DNA of 64,000 nt from Longibacter salinarum (GTDB lineage Bacteria > Bacteroidota > Rhodothermia > Rhodothermales > Salinibacteraceae), in NCBI RefSeq assembly GCF_002554795.1, contig NZ_PDEQ01000001.1, forward strand, positions 186,001 through 250,000, in the 5' to 3' direction. Numbering within the stretch: position 1 is the first letter of the stretch; each line of letters begins with the position of its first letter. Below, piece by piece: positions 2,946-7,132 of the stretch. The position numbers and the translations under genes are program-made. The notes beneath the pieces were generated by a model. The model was not told the origin of the DNA. It was given only the letters and a program-made list of their open reading frames with translations, and searched no databases.

Positions 2946-3557
2946 TCACGAAAAATCGTCGTCCGAGAACGCGTTATTCCTTTCGCGGTCGAATGGAGCG
3001 GGCTCATCCCGCGTAGGCGGCGTTTCGAATCGGGAAGGGGAGTCGGAGGTCTCCTCGTCCGGTCGCCCGTCCGATTCCGGAGCGGCGGGGGCTTTCCGTC
3101 CGGTGCAGGTGATCTGAAAATGAATCGTATCCACAGAACCGAAGCCGACCAGCTGGAGCTCGACGATGATGCCCAGGCGTCCGTTCACCAGCGCCGGCTG
3201 CGTCCCGGTTACGGACTGTCCGCCCCCGGTGGCCCCTCGGCTCGGGATCCGAATCATGCCCATGTCGCCTGCTACAAAGACGGCGATCTGGTCAACGTCG
3301 GCCATCGGAGGACCGATATTCTTCACTACGATCGTAAATCGCTCCGTCCCCGCGCCGTGCTCATTCTCGGGAAACGTGCCCGCGTCCGGGCCACCGGCTC
3401 GCTCACTCCCCGTGTGCGCTGTGCCCGTGAGCGTCAGCTGGACACGGTCGTTCTCGATTGGAAGCTCGACCTTCTGTACCGGCGGCACCGGTTCGTAAAC
3501 CAGTGTATCTTCCGGGTAGCTTGTCTCTAAAGCGACGGCAGGGGTGGACTCGGACAT
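2946..3557 (-). CDS. Uncharacterised protein
   Basis: 203 residues from the ATG at 3557 (the frame extends to 3599). I do not recognise the family. Residues about 25-150 are rich in beta-branched residues (for example VQLTLTGTAHTGS, FTIVVKNIGPPM, GRLGIIVELQLVGFG) and look like an Ig-like or other beta-sandwich domain. The last 50 residues are Pro/Glu/Asp/Ser-rich and likely disordered. There is no signal peptide and no membrane segment. It stands between the msrBA pair and the aldo/keto reductase gene on the same strand, 18 bp downstream of the reductase stop, so it may be the last gene of that transcript. Confidence 0.6.
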   Translation of the reverse strand: MSESTPAVALETSYPEDTLVYEPVPPVQKVELPIENDRVQLTLTGTAHTGSERAGGPDAGTFPENEHGAGTERFTIVVKNIGPPMADVDQIAVFVAGDMGMIRIPSRGATGGGQSVTGTQPALVNGRLGIIVELQLVGFGSVDTIHFQITCTGRKAPAAPESDGRPDEETSDSPSRFETPPTRDEPAPFDRERNNAFSDDDFS

Positions 3558-3617
3558 AGAGGGTGGAGCACGGAAATACGATAGATTCAACGATAACAAG
3601 GCGAGCGCGACCGTCTT

Positions 3618-4619
3618 CTAACGCGTGCCGTACGTGTGCTCAGACCGCTCCTCGATTCGGTCGGTCGCCGGCGGTGGGGTGGGGGAGAGTTCGCTGATCT
3701 CCTCGCGCAGTTCCGGCGTCATGTTAATATTGAGCGCCCCGAGCGAACCCTCGAGTTGGTCTACGTTGCGGGCTCCGATAATGGGGGCTGTCACGCCGGG
3801 GTGATGCGCCACCCACGCCACAGCGAGCGAAACCGGGTCGAATCCATTGTCACGGGCAAATGCGGCGAAGCGTTCGGCCACGCGGTAGTTCACATCTTCG
3901 CCATAGCGGGTCTGGTACATCTGGTTTTCCACGAGTCGACCATTATCGGGGCGGTCGTCGACGCCATACTTTCCGGTCAGCAGTCCGCCGCCGAGCGGAG
4001 AGTACGGCGTGACGGCGAGCGACTCGGACTGTGCCATCGGAAGGATCTCCACCTCGGCCTGTCGTTTGGCGAGATTGTACATGGGCTGGACAACATGAAA
4101 GGGGCTCCATCCCTCGCGCGCCTGGATCCCGAGCGCTTTTGCGACCTGCCACGCCGCGAAGTTGCTAGCGCCGAGGTAGAGGACCTTGCCCTGCCGGACG
4201 AGGTCATCCAGCGCACGCAGTGTCTCATAGAGGGACGTTTCGTCGTCGAAGCGGTGCACGAAGAAGACATCGATACGGTCGGTGCCCAGGCGCTTCAGGC
4301 TGTTCTCTACAGCGCGCACGAGATGGTAGCGAGAGGACCCGCGTGCATTCGGGTCATCACCTGTTGGGAAATAGGCTTTCGTCGTGATTACGACCTCGTC
4401 CCGGCAGTCCGCGATCAGGTCTCCAAGGATTTCCTCTGAGCGACCGTCGACATAGACGTTCGCGCAGTCGAACATGTTGATGCCGGCATCGCGGCAGAGG
4501 TGAAACATGGCTGCGGAGGTCTCGCGGTCGGCGATCCCGCCGAACGACATTGTGCCGAAGCAGAGAGGCGAAACTTTAACGCCTGTAGAGCCGAGATAGC
4601 GGTGGGACGGAAGTTGCAT
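3618..4619 (-). CDS. Aldo/keto reductase
   Basis: 333 residues from the ATG at 4619; the longer frame to 4823 overlaps the upstream gene and has no family similarity. The aldo/keto reductase TIM barrel is clear: N-terminal LGSTGVKVSPLCFGTMSFGG and the catalytic tetrad D51, Y56, K81 and H122. It reduces aldehydes or ketones with NADPH; the physiological substrate is not readable. The gene lies 43 bp downstream of the epimerase-hydrolase fusion on the same strand, suggesting cotranscription. Confidence 0.92.
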   Translation of the reverse strand: MQLPSHRYLGSTGVKVSPLCFGTMSFGGIADRETSAAMFHLCRDAGINMFDCANVYVDGRSEEILGDLIADCRDEVVITTKAYFPTGDDPNARGSSRYHLVRAVENSLKRLGTDRIDVFFVHRFDDETSLYETLRALDDLVRQGKVLYLGASNFAAWQVAKALGIQAREGWSPFHVVQPMYNLAKRQAEVEILPMAQSESLAVTPYSPLGGGLLTGKYGVDDRPDNGRLVENQMYQTRYGEDVNYRVAERFAAFARDNGFDPVSLAVAWVAHHPGVTAPIIGARNVDQLEGSLGALNINMTPELREEISELSPTPPPATDRIEERSEHTYGTR

Positions 4620-4662: not shown

Positions 4663-5820
4663 TCAGTCGGTGAACCAGCTGGAAAGGGTTGTGCAGAGTC
4701 GATCCAGGGGGGCAAGCGGCAAGGCGTGATGCGATCCGCGCAGAACCTCAAGCCGCGCGTCGGGAAGCAAGTTGTGGAGCGCCAGGGTAGCCGAGAGCGG
4801 GAACAGGTCGTCCTGGTCGACACATGAAATGAGGGCGGGCCGGTCGACCGCTTCGGCCATCTGTTTCATCCGCGGAGTTTGCTCCGGAAGCGTTGCAACC
4901 CACTCCTGCATGTGATCAAAGAGAGCACGCCAGTCAAGATGGTGAGCGGACAGGTGCTCCGTGAGGCGTGCATTCTGTTTCGTCAGAAGGTCAGCATCCA
5001 GTCGGGCTTGCATCGACGCAACAATGTCCTGCGACCATGTCACGTTGGCTCCATGTGCCGCGACCCGTCCGACGCGATCGGGATGTTGCTGGGCAAACCC
5101 GAGCGCAACATTCCCGCCCATCGAGAAGCCGAACAGGTCGGCCTGTTGTAACTCGAGGGTGTCCATGACAATCTCGACATCCTCGGCGTACGCATCGAAC
5201 GAAATGGGATCGGTCGACGCGGTCGATGAACCGTGCCCGCGAAAGTCGAGCGCGATGACCTGGAACTGGGTCTCCAGCTTGCGCATCAGGGGGGCAGTCT
5301 CCAGTGATGTGCACCCTGCTGCGCCGTGCAGTAGAAGCAGCGGCGGCTGGTGGTCGCTCCCGGACGTGTAGACCGCCAGCTCGTGATCCCCTGCATCAAT
5401 CATGTGCGGCTCGGGTCGGATGGGCGCTGAGCCGCAGAATTCGACCAGCACCCCATGCGTCTGTTTGGGGTGGAGAAAGAAAATGCGTTTTCCGTCAGCA
5501 CCGGGAGTCGGTTCATCTCCGAGCGGCGTGTAACCAGCGTCTTGTAGGCGCTCGAAGGTGGCGTCTACGTCATCTACCTGGAACGCGAGGTGGTGCAGGC
5601 CTTCGCCTCGCTTCTTCAGGTACCCGGCGATCGGACCATCCTCGTTCGTAGATTCCAGCAACTCCAGCTTTGCGGTCCCGGCATTGATGAAGTGCGTCTG
5701 GACGTGCTGCGACGCGACGGACTCCACCTTATAGGGGAGCACATCGAGCAGGTCCTGGTAGAGCGAACGAACCGCATCGGCATCGTCGACGGCTATTCCG
5801 ATATGTTCGAGCTGAGGCAT
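4663..5820 (-). CDS. Methylmalonyl-CoA epimerase-like domain fused to an alpha/beta hydrolase
   Basis: A 385-residue two-domain protein. Residues 1-130 form a VOC-fold epimerase: LEHIGIAVDD with metal ligand H6, KLELLES near 51-57, LHHLAFQV with H76/H77, and VEF with E127. These match the metal and catalytic positions of methylmalonyl-CoA epimerase, which interconverts the (R) and (S) isomers in propionate metabolism. Residues about 145-385 form an alpha/beta hydrolase: oxyanion region LLLHGAAG, nucleophile S233 in GFSMGGN, acid D337 or D338, and His364 in GSHHALP. A stand-alone epimerase is usually about 135-150 residues, so the hydrolase is extra. The hydrolase substrate is unknown; a thioesterase or esterase role is speculation. 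Confidence 0.85.
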   Translation of the reverse strand: MPQLEHIGIAVDDADAVRSLYQDLLDVLPYKVESVASQHVQTHFINAGTAKLELLESTNEDGPIAGYLKKRGEGLHHLAFQVDDVDATFERLQDAGYTPLGDEPTPGADGKRIFFLHPKQTHGVLVEFCGSAPIRPEPHMIDAGDHELAVYTSGSDHQPPLLLLHGAAGCTSLETAPLMRKLETQFQVIALDFRGHGSSTASTDPISFDAYAEDVEIVMDTLELQQADLFGFSMGGNVALGFAQQHPDRVGRVAAHGANVTWSQDIVASMQARLDADLLTKQNARLTEHLSAHHLDWRALFDHMQEWVATLPEQTPRMKQMAEAVDRPALISCVDQDDLFPLSATLALHNLLPDARLEVLRGSHHALPLAPLDRLCTTLSSWFTD

Positions 5821-6103: not shown

Positions 6104-7132
6104 ATGACCGCGAAAGAGACGATCGGTGACCCGTCCCTGGCCGAGCGGCGCCGTAAGCATCGGAAGGCCAAGATGAGCGAACGACGTACCGCCCGTCGAC
6201 GCGCGATGGGGTTGAGCATCATCGTCTCGTTCATCATGCTGGCGGGGAAAGTCATTGCGGCGCAACTGACCGGAAGTGCCGCCATCTTCTCCGATGCCGC
6301 GGAGTCCGTCGTTCATCTTTTCGCGACCGGGTTTGCGAGCTTCAGCCTCTGGTATGCCGCCACGCCGCCCGACTCCAACCATCCGTATGGCCACGGTAAA
6401 GTTGCGTACTTCGCTTCCGCGGTTGAGGGCGTGCTGATTCTTGTCGCAGCCGTCGGAATCGTCTGGACGTCGGTCAATGACCTCCTGACGGGAGCCGAAC
6501 TGCAGCGACTGAACATCGGCCTATACCTGCTCGCGGGCCTCACAGCGATCAACCTCGGGCTCGGCTGGTACCTCGTTCGCACCGGTCGGGAGACCAATAG
6601 CATCGTTCTGGTGTCAAACGGCCAGCACGTGCTCACCGATATGTGGACGAGCCTCGGTGTGATCGTCGGCGTCGGGCTCGTCTGGCTTACGGGCGTCTCG
6701 TGGCTCGATCCGTTGGTGGCTCTCCTCGTCGCCGGCAACATACTGTGGACGGCGTACGGTCTTCTCCGGAGGAGCATATACGGTCTGATGGATAAGGCGG
6801 ACGGAGACGCGACGCAGCAAATTCTCGATGTTCTGGCGTCTGCCAAGGAGCAAGGCCTGATCGCAGACTTCCACCAGGTGCGGCATCGGCGCACGGGGGA
6901 CGAAGTGTGGATCGAGTACCACCTGATGTTTCCCGGCGACATGACGATTCACGACGCGCACGACCGCTCCCATCGCGTCGAGGACGAGGTCGACCGGCTC
7001 TTTCCGGACGACGACGTGCACGTGACGGCACATCTCGAGCCTCGGAAACACGACGCCGCCCACCCCGATCACCACTACGAACCGGCTGACCCGTTGCGTG
7101 ACGTCTTCTTCGATCTCCGCGGCGGCGACTGA
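6104..7132 (+). CDS. Cation diffusion facilitator family transporter
   Basis: 342 residues from the ATG at 6104, the first start that leaves a normal short, basic N-terminus; the open frame to 5927 reads through the divergent promoter region. Transmembrane segments lie near residues 36-56, 60-82, 102-122, 135-157, 180-197 and 199-215, then a cytoplasmic domain rich in His and Asp. Such transporters export divalent metals (Zn, Mn, Fe, Co) against protons. The TM5 half-site is the usual H175-x3-D179. The TM2 half-site is E67-x3-H71 instead of the common H/D-x3-D, so the metal preference may differ. A terminator-like hairpin follows the gene. Confidence 0.9.
   Translation: MTAKETIGDPSLAERRRKHRKAKMSERRTARRRAMGLSIIVSFIMLAGKVIAAQLTGSAAIFSDAAESVVHLFATGFASFSLWYAATPPDSNHPYGHGKVAYFASAVEGVLILVAAVGIVWTSVNDLLTGAELQRLNIGLYLLAGLTAINLGLGWYLVRTGRETNSIVLVSNGQHVLTDMWTSLGVIVGVGLVWLTGVSWLDPLVALLVAGNILWTAYGLLRRSIYGLMDKADGDATQQILDVLASAKEQGLIADFHQVRHRRTGDEVWIEYHLMFPGDMTIHDAHDRSHRVEDEVDRLFPDDDVHVTAHLEPRKHDAAHPDHHYEPADPLRDVFFDLRGGD

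Follow-up and report, generated by a model that had tools for sequence, protein, structure and literature searches.

A single gene of Longibacter salinarum joins a methylmalonyl-CoA epimerase to an alpha/beta hydrolase, and we regard it as practically certain that this fusion is real and common to many relatives of its host. The gene lies at positions 4663–5820, on the minus strand, of the window, by which we mean the whole stretch of 64,000 nucleotides that was analysed; it encodes 385 amino acids and a stop, and its identification draws on the open reading frame, the domain profiles and colinear relatives. The reading frame begins with ATG inside an open frame of 434 codons and has zero internal stops, and several stops are found on the plus strand of the same interval. 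Its epimerase domain (residues 1–131; 5428–5820, minus strand) matches TIGR03081 (metmalonyl_epim) over residues 4–129 of the fused protein with 138.7 bits against a cutoff of 114.95. The alpha/beta hydrolase domain (residues 139–385; 4666–5406, minus strand), delimited by Pfam and AlphaFold2, matches Pfam Abhydrolase_1 over residues 159–313 at 1.7e-30 and has a helical cap at about residues 264–323. The AlphaFold2 model of the fused protein, made from a 34-row alignment, has a mean pLDDT of 92.8 and a pTM of 0.79. An earlier note had proposed a fusion of these two domains at this place, and it is borne out: the coordinates are right, the minus strand holds one ORF and both profiles are matched.

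Could the two halves have been brought together by error? The 33 other complete fusions are colinear with the window protein and 38–56% identical to it, and chance is therefore excluded. An assembly or frameshift artefact joining two genes, the sequencing error that the earlier note had named as fatal to its reading, has a negligible probability given that the frame is uninterrupted, and that many independent genomes carry the identical, colinear architecture, some of them, G147, G195 and G260, being assembled in two or three contigs (genomes, loci and families bear our own labels, G, L and f). Two adjacent genes with a stop between them, the other arrangement feared there, were not encountered either: at 22 loci of stand-alone epimerases, 932 translated segments from the stretch of up to 2.5 kb that follows the epimerase stop (some contigs being shorter, and the search having no positive control) contained no hydrolase segment at E ≤ 1.

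How widely is the fusion distributed? A search for the same domain order in relatives, recommended in the earlier note, was made as a survey of the host order covering 114 genomes and 95 loci besides the window's own, with one protein extracted per locus. It yielded 36 intact fusions, 34 of them complete and two cut at contig ends, in families f1 (23), f45 (6), f44 (3), f43 (2), f42 (1) and f6 (1). Among the matches listed, 96 of the 114 genomes have an epimerase gene. Besides the intact fusions there are 20 genes with truncated tails (282–330 aa; f46 5, f41 4, f3 3, f7 3, f5 2, and f4, f40 and f43 1 each), 16 with remnants (210–260 aa; f7 11, f5 4 and f45 1, the f45 row reflecting an assembly gap filled with N), 23 stand-alone epimerases (f5 20, and f7, f8 and f45 1 each) and one 63-aa epimerase fragment (G255 of f1, L187). 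The residues S233, D337 and H365, the predicted triad of the hydrolase, are complete in all 34 complete intact rows and in none of the 20 truncated and 16 remnant ones. With the 63-aa fragment left out, and the tail of G235, an assembly gap, not counted as a loss, 95 epimerase genes were judged: 58 lack the triad (20 truncated, 15 remnants, 23 stand-alone), and all 95 have the epimerase residues H6, E53, H77 and E127. Full fusions occur in six families and triad-less shortened tails in eight, f43 belonging to both sets.

Some members of the order are peculiar in other respects. The fused gene of G235 (L171) is broken by a run of N, and a second match downstream (37% identity, residues 199–372) suggests that the hydrolase half lies past it. 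Two contig-end copies in G242, L093 2762–3437 and L090 1–676, overlap by 676 bp with 97.0% identity and represent two gene copies or two strains within the assembly. G236 of f45 (L185) has a divergent stand-alone homologue, placed by the epimerase tree on a very long branch amid the outgroups; the other f45 members fetched carry the fusion. The 18 genomes without an epimerase among the matches listed have best matches of 1e-16 or weaker; seven constitute the whole of f2 and the other 11 are scattered, nine of these being below 90% complete. G198 and G213 (94–96% complete) have a full-length mutase match and no epimerase among the matches listed, so that the pairing of epimerase and mutase is imperfect. 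The same lack in the seven f2 genomes (genus g3; G003, G008, G050, G058, G155, G229 and G230) is accompanied by a weaker mutase match (1e-97 to 1e-100, frames of 1159–1171 aa) and by a PrpD/MmgE match in 7 of 7, and this family may have exchanged the methylmalonyl-CoA route for the methylcitrate one.

Outside the order, no uninterrupted match through both domains appeared among the matches listed for a phylum sample of 198 genomes; stops lie inside the match in G101 (residues 4–185) and G082 (residues 3–159). A contig scan of genomes gave 23 loci, none with a best segment running from the epimerase beyond residue 160. No fusion was found in 296 genomes of a phylum centred on Mycobacterium (E ≤ 1e-30) or in 299 of one centred on a gammaproteobacterium (E ≤ 1e-27); at these thresholds, and with no positive control, only close copies are excluded.

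Methylmalonyl-CoA epimerases perform a metal-assisted equilibration of epimers for the mutase, and the epimerase half, to judge from its sequence, very probably works as such an enzyme. Its presumed metal ligands are H6 (codon at 5803–5805), E53 (5662–5664), H77 (5590–5592) and E127 (5440–5442, all on the minus strand), a role that we assume for these positions from their alignment to solved epimerases. TIGR03081 is matched by all 34 complete fusions at E ≤ 0.001, the comparison with the cutoff being given for the window protein; one f7 epimerase scanned, L180, misses the cutoff (100.2 against 114.95). Thr42 aligns with Glu43, the second acid/base of the S. coelicolor enzyme. The equivalent residue is Ile in 3oa4, Thr in a stand-alone homologue of the host phylum and presumably also something other than Glu in the human epimerase, and we do not treat this position as defining for methylmalonyl-CoA epimerase.

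Within the host assembly (4.4 Mb, 22 contigs, 99.76% complete), the fused gene is the only place above the TIGR03081 cutoff; the further stand-alone epimerase for which the earlier note advised looking is not there at that cutoff. Other places, considered as a second epimerase and rejected, score 31.8, 31.0 and 23.9 bits, and the first two share one frame, identified as 4-hydroxyphenylpyruvate dioxygenase with 455.2 bits (cutoff 277). A mutase pair, one member with and one without a B12-binding domain, is clustered with a 448-aa ORF and MeaB about 342 kb from the fused gene, and a second, longer mutase frame, which we take to resemble IcmF, sits on another contig. As no other place exceeds the cutoff, and the mutase pair and MeaB are present, the fused gene is the only clear epimerase candidate of this genome. 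The 448-aa ORF (L188 11349–12695), situated between the mutase large subunit and MeaB, has no Pfam match at E ≤ 0.01.

The hydrolase half of the window protein is likely to be a working serine hydrolase, as far as its residues can tell. Its nucleophile, acid and histidine follow in the order that is found in serine alpha/beta hydrolases: S233, the predicted nucleophile in the motif GFSMG (codon at 5122–5124), D337, the predicted acid (4810–4812), and H365, the predicted catalytic histidine (4726–4728, all on the minus strand), each invariant in 34 of 34 complete fusions, as is D335. The earlier note had considered the catalytic residues of both domains kept. In the alignment of the 34 complete fusions this stands for H6, H77, E127, S233 and D337, which are invariant, and calls for correction at three points: the metal ligand is E53 and not residue 52, the histidine is H365 and not H364, and D338, named there beside D337, is variable.

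Family and fold searches place this domain only in the broad group of esterases, lactonases and C-C hydrolases. Its scores against named hydrolase families are far below every cutoff among the 25 listed; TIGR02427, the 3-oxoadipate enol-lactonase PcaD, is missed with 80.6 against 255.85 bits. The 26.2 bits obtained with Pfam Thioesterase (PF00975), just below the cutoff of 26.4, reflect general alpha/beta-hydrolase similarity. The best fold match by VIA-align is the human valacyclovir hydrolase 2ocg (Z 32.2, rmsd 2.1, 245 aligned), with 2ocl and 2ock tied, followed by many esterases and C-C hydrolases; no thioesterase stands in the best 50 listed. Such matches to a predicted structure indicate the fold, not the substrate.

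Are the shortened tails relics of the hydrolase? Eight tail groups were compared with the intact hydrolase tails by profile comparison in local mode, with 20 column shuffles and one reversal for each. The E-values were 8.9e-26 for f4/f40/f43, 7.1e-8 for f3, 2.5e-7 for f7-mid, 6.9e-7 for f5-mid, 1.5e-5 for f7-short, 1.9e-4 for f41 and 1.4e-3 for f46, and these seven groups lie below their own best shuffle (0.001–0.098) and reversal (at least 0.066). The four rows of f5 remnants, taken as a group, reached 0.018 against a best shuffle of 0.085, and their relatedness is unsupported. Earlier values, in global mode, had been 4.6e-7 for f41, 6.4e-4 for f46, 1.4e-4 for f7 short and 0.53 for the f5 remnants. 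Single rows are far weaker (0.18–3.6 in f46, 0.0011–1.2 in f7-short, 3.8 and 7.9 for two f41 rows), so that homology holds for the groups, best for f4, f40, f43 and f3. The f7 tails align to the C-terminal part of the hydrolase profile, those of f41, f46 and f5-mid to its N-terminal part.

Pairwise Nei-Gojobori dN/dS is 0.08–0.35 in nine pairs of intact tails and 0.12–0.52 in nine of ten triad-less pairs, the tenth being saturated; these are rough values, as certain sequences recur in more than one pair and a number of synonymous distances approach saturation. Where a value exists for each half, the tail evolves faster than the epimerase in 7 of 8 intact pairs and in 8 of 9 triad-less ones. 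Ratios below 1 imply that a tail without the triad is not simply drifting, and what remains of it probably has a structural role. One could go further and regard the tail as mainly a structural or assembly module, concerned with stability, oligomer state or mutase docking, in which catalysis is vestigial or secondary. The constraint on the triad-less tails speaks in favour of such a module, as does the 248-aa form of f7, which is predicted to be folded in the best AlphaFold2 model (mean pLDDT 90.5; the other four 90.0, 79.1, 74.5 and 73.0); the fold search with this short form matched the epimerase half and barely tested the tail. A pure scaffold, however, would not need S233, D335, D337 and H365, which are present in 34 of 34 complete fusions, and 23 genomes have epimerases without any tail. 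We consider a mainly structural tail unlikely.

Where did the hydrolase come from? The nearest free hydrolases among the matches listed, L194, L195 and L196 in G092, G159 and G126, belong to the host phylum, outside the order, and are frames of 229–249 aa situated away from the epimerase gene of their own genome. A model of the 34 fused tails gives them 158–180 bits, the fused tails 265 or more, and six free hydrolases tested from the window's family 120 or less. The G092 hydrolase and the window protein are 31% identical across 219 columns; a Trp of the former aligns with W262, which is invariant among the fused proteins, and a His lies near H294, where gap placement is ambiguous. Neighbours scanned of the three free genes differ and suggest no common pathway. 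Used as a query against the 114 genomes at E ≤ 1e-18, the G092 hydrolase finds 31 places, distributed over 30 genomes, and each is an intact fused gene. No free hydrolase of the subtype was found elsewhere in the order at E ≤ 1e-18, a level below which six intact fusions score and a diverged copy could too. Since the query finds the fused gene only, the subtype probably entered the epimerase gene from such a free gene, with no separate copy kept.

The trees bear on this history weakly and reject neither a single fusion nor a single loss. Deep branches of the epimerase tree (112 rows, 131 columns) have support of 74/64 and 85/63, and the intact f44 and f45 genes adjoin the stand-alone outgroups with weak support. 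Its starred branches comprise at least three changes of the truncated label and four of the stand-alone label, the latter including the odd row L185. Family f43 has two intact members and one triad-less member (G224), and the epimerase of G224 is placed apart from both (88/82); a transfer of this gene is possible. Several independent losses, a reading based on the starred branches and f43, were not retained, as one clade of all non-intact genes is unrejected (p 0.162) and G224 may represent a transfer. We also set aside the statement that fused tails form a group of their own (support 89, with distant free hydrolases), L090 in that tree being the other end of a fused gene. With the three nearer free hydrolases included, only 6% of bootstrap trees have a branch that separates the fused tails from the rest, and one fused-tail clade is unrejected (p 0.413).

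The genomic surroundings are of help here. Upstream of the fused gene, and divergent from it, lies a cation efflux (CDF) transporter (6107–7132, plus strand; PF01545), which serves as a synteny anchor for the locus and homologues of which stand beside the epimerase genes of f1, f40, f42, f45, f5 and f8: they flank intact genes in f1 (21 of 23), f42 (1/1) and f45 (6/6), truncated ones in f40 (1/1) and f5 (2/2), a remnant in f5 (1/4) and stand-alone ones in f5 (18/20) and f8 (1/1). A UvrC gene, identified by Pfam, flanks intact genes in f43 (2/2), f44 (3/3) and f45 (6/6), truncated ones in f40 (1/1), f41 (4/4), f43 (1/1), f46 (5/5) and f7 (3/3), the remnants of f7 (11/11) and two stand-alone genes. 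Both are found in f45 and f40, which therefore link the two sets of loci; neither CDF nor UvrC flanks the f3, f4 and f6 loci. The neighbours favour one locus and one early fusion followed by decay, and we hold it fairly probable that the fusion arose once, early in the order, and that its hydrolase half decayed later.

On the other side, about 60 bp downstream of the fused gene and on the same strand, lies an aldo/keto reductase (3618–4601, minus strand; PF00248, 4.5e-72). Of the 23 intact loci of the host family, the window's included, 11 have a homologue of this reductase close to the fusion. We treat it as a neighbour and infer no partnership. Its appearance as a neighbour common to the fused gene and the free G092 hydrolase was dismissed as coincidence (27% identical, one of three free loci). 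A 217-aa ORF between this reductase and a SelR-domain protein (window 2949–3599, minus strand) has no Pfam match at E ≤ 0.001.

What could be the purpose of such a composite enzyme? In the account that explains the observations best, and that we hold tentatively when it is taken as a whole, a free hydrolase, of a subtype persisting outside the order, would have become attached to the C-terminus of the epimerase at an early stage of the order, and decay of the hydrolase half would have followed in several lineages. The epimerase half would equilibrate methylmalonyl-CoA epimers for the mutase some 342 kb away, as part of the B12-dependent route from propionyl-CoA to succinyl-CoA; the fused gene does not stand beside the mutase genes. 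The hydrolase half would be an auxiliary serine hydrolase acting through an acyl-enzyme, a mechanism suggested by the triad, and the tether suggests that its substrate may be something made or bound close to the epimerase. The distribution within the order marks the epimerase as the core and makes the hydrolase an accessory: since 58 of 95 genes lack the triad and all 95 have their epimerase ligands complete, an epimerase gene can be kept without the hydrolase, and the suggestion of the earlier note that the epimerase might be the accessory partner becomes unlikely.

The nature of the substrate is a matter for more caution. A first guess, possible and somewhat doubtful, would be one of the CoA thioesters of the route, methylmalonyl-, propionyl- or succinyl-CoA, or else a by-product, from which the hydrolase half would free CoA when the mutase is limiting. 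If such activity were conditional, the active site would decay where it is not needed while the leftover tail stays constrained. Hydrolysis of stalled or damaged acyl-CoA, as first suggested in the earlier note, is possible. A further reading, a safety valve in which a tethered methylmalonyl-CoA (or propionyl-CoA) thioesterase frees CoA at a stalled B12-dependent mutase and has been switched off repeatedly and stepwise, seems to us distinctly improbable. PrpD is present in 11 of 36 intact genomes, in 4 of 60 other epimerase-bearing genomes and in 7 of 7 f2 genomes, a distribution confounded by kinship, and it gives no support to the idea that a valve is kept where the methylcitrate route is absent.

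The hydrolase may, on the other hand, be active with an ester or a lactone that has no part in the methylmalonyl-CoA route, with the fusion being a frozen accident or a device for co-expression. Such a reading accords with the nearest families and folds, which are esterases, enol-lactonases, C-C bond hydrolases and valacyclovir hydrolase, with the position of the three nearest free relatives, which stand alone and away from epimerase genes, and with the absence of the hydrolase from many relatives. It sits less well with the retention of both tether and intact triad in six families and with a subtype that is found only in fused form in the order (E ≤ 1e-18), and we think it doubtful.

The earlier note had not known of this fusion, and no description of an epimerase-hydrolase fusion was found in the open-access literature; in their available portions, PMC3102087 and PMC7409140 do not have it as their subject. 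Both halves belong to known families, and it is the combination, its distribution and its graded decay that seem to be new. Automatic annotation would probably name only one half, and the fusion is therefore easily overlooked. It would be a two-domain form, kept in six families of the order, of an enzyme whose solved structures are otherwise single-domain, and its living intermediates range from the complete fusion through the triad-less tail and the short remnant to no tail at all. With these one could test whether the propionate route is protected by an accessory (thio)esterase, and in what manner a fused domain is eroded stepwise while its partner is under stronger selection.

How does the fused protein compare with known systems? 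It has the same whole domain and metal-ligand pattern as the solved epimerases (TIGR03081; 3oa4, 6wf6 and the human 3rmu), and its host genome has the mutase and MeaB; Glu53 takes the place of Q60 in the S. coelicolor epimerase, as it does in 3oa4. The solved epimerase chains listed are 134–161 aa long, whereas the fused protein adds a 250-aa hydrolase behind. With Abhydrolase_1 enzymes such as PcaD, PHB depolymerase, meta-cleavage hydrolases and valacyclovir hydrolase it shares the fold, the nucleophile elbow, the cap and the triad, but the fused hydrolase scores far under the curated cutoffs and stands behind an epimerase. The closest free relatives of the hydrolase half seen, L194–L196, are stand-alone, and the two of the three that were scanned reach no named family's cutoff among the rows listed. 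Bifunctional fusions of the PcaCD/PcaDC type likewise join an alpha/beta hydrolase to another small enzyme, yet with a different partner and in a different pathway, and the likeness is confined to the hydrolase half.
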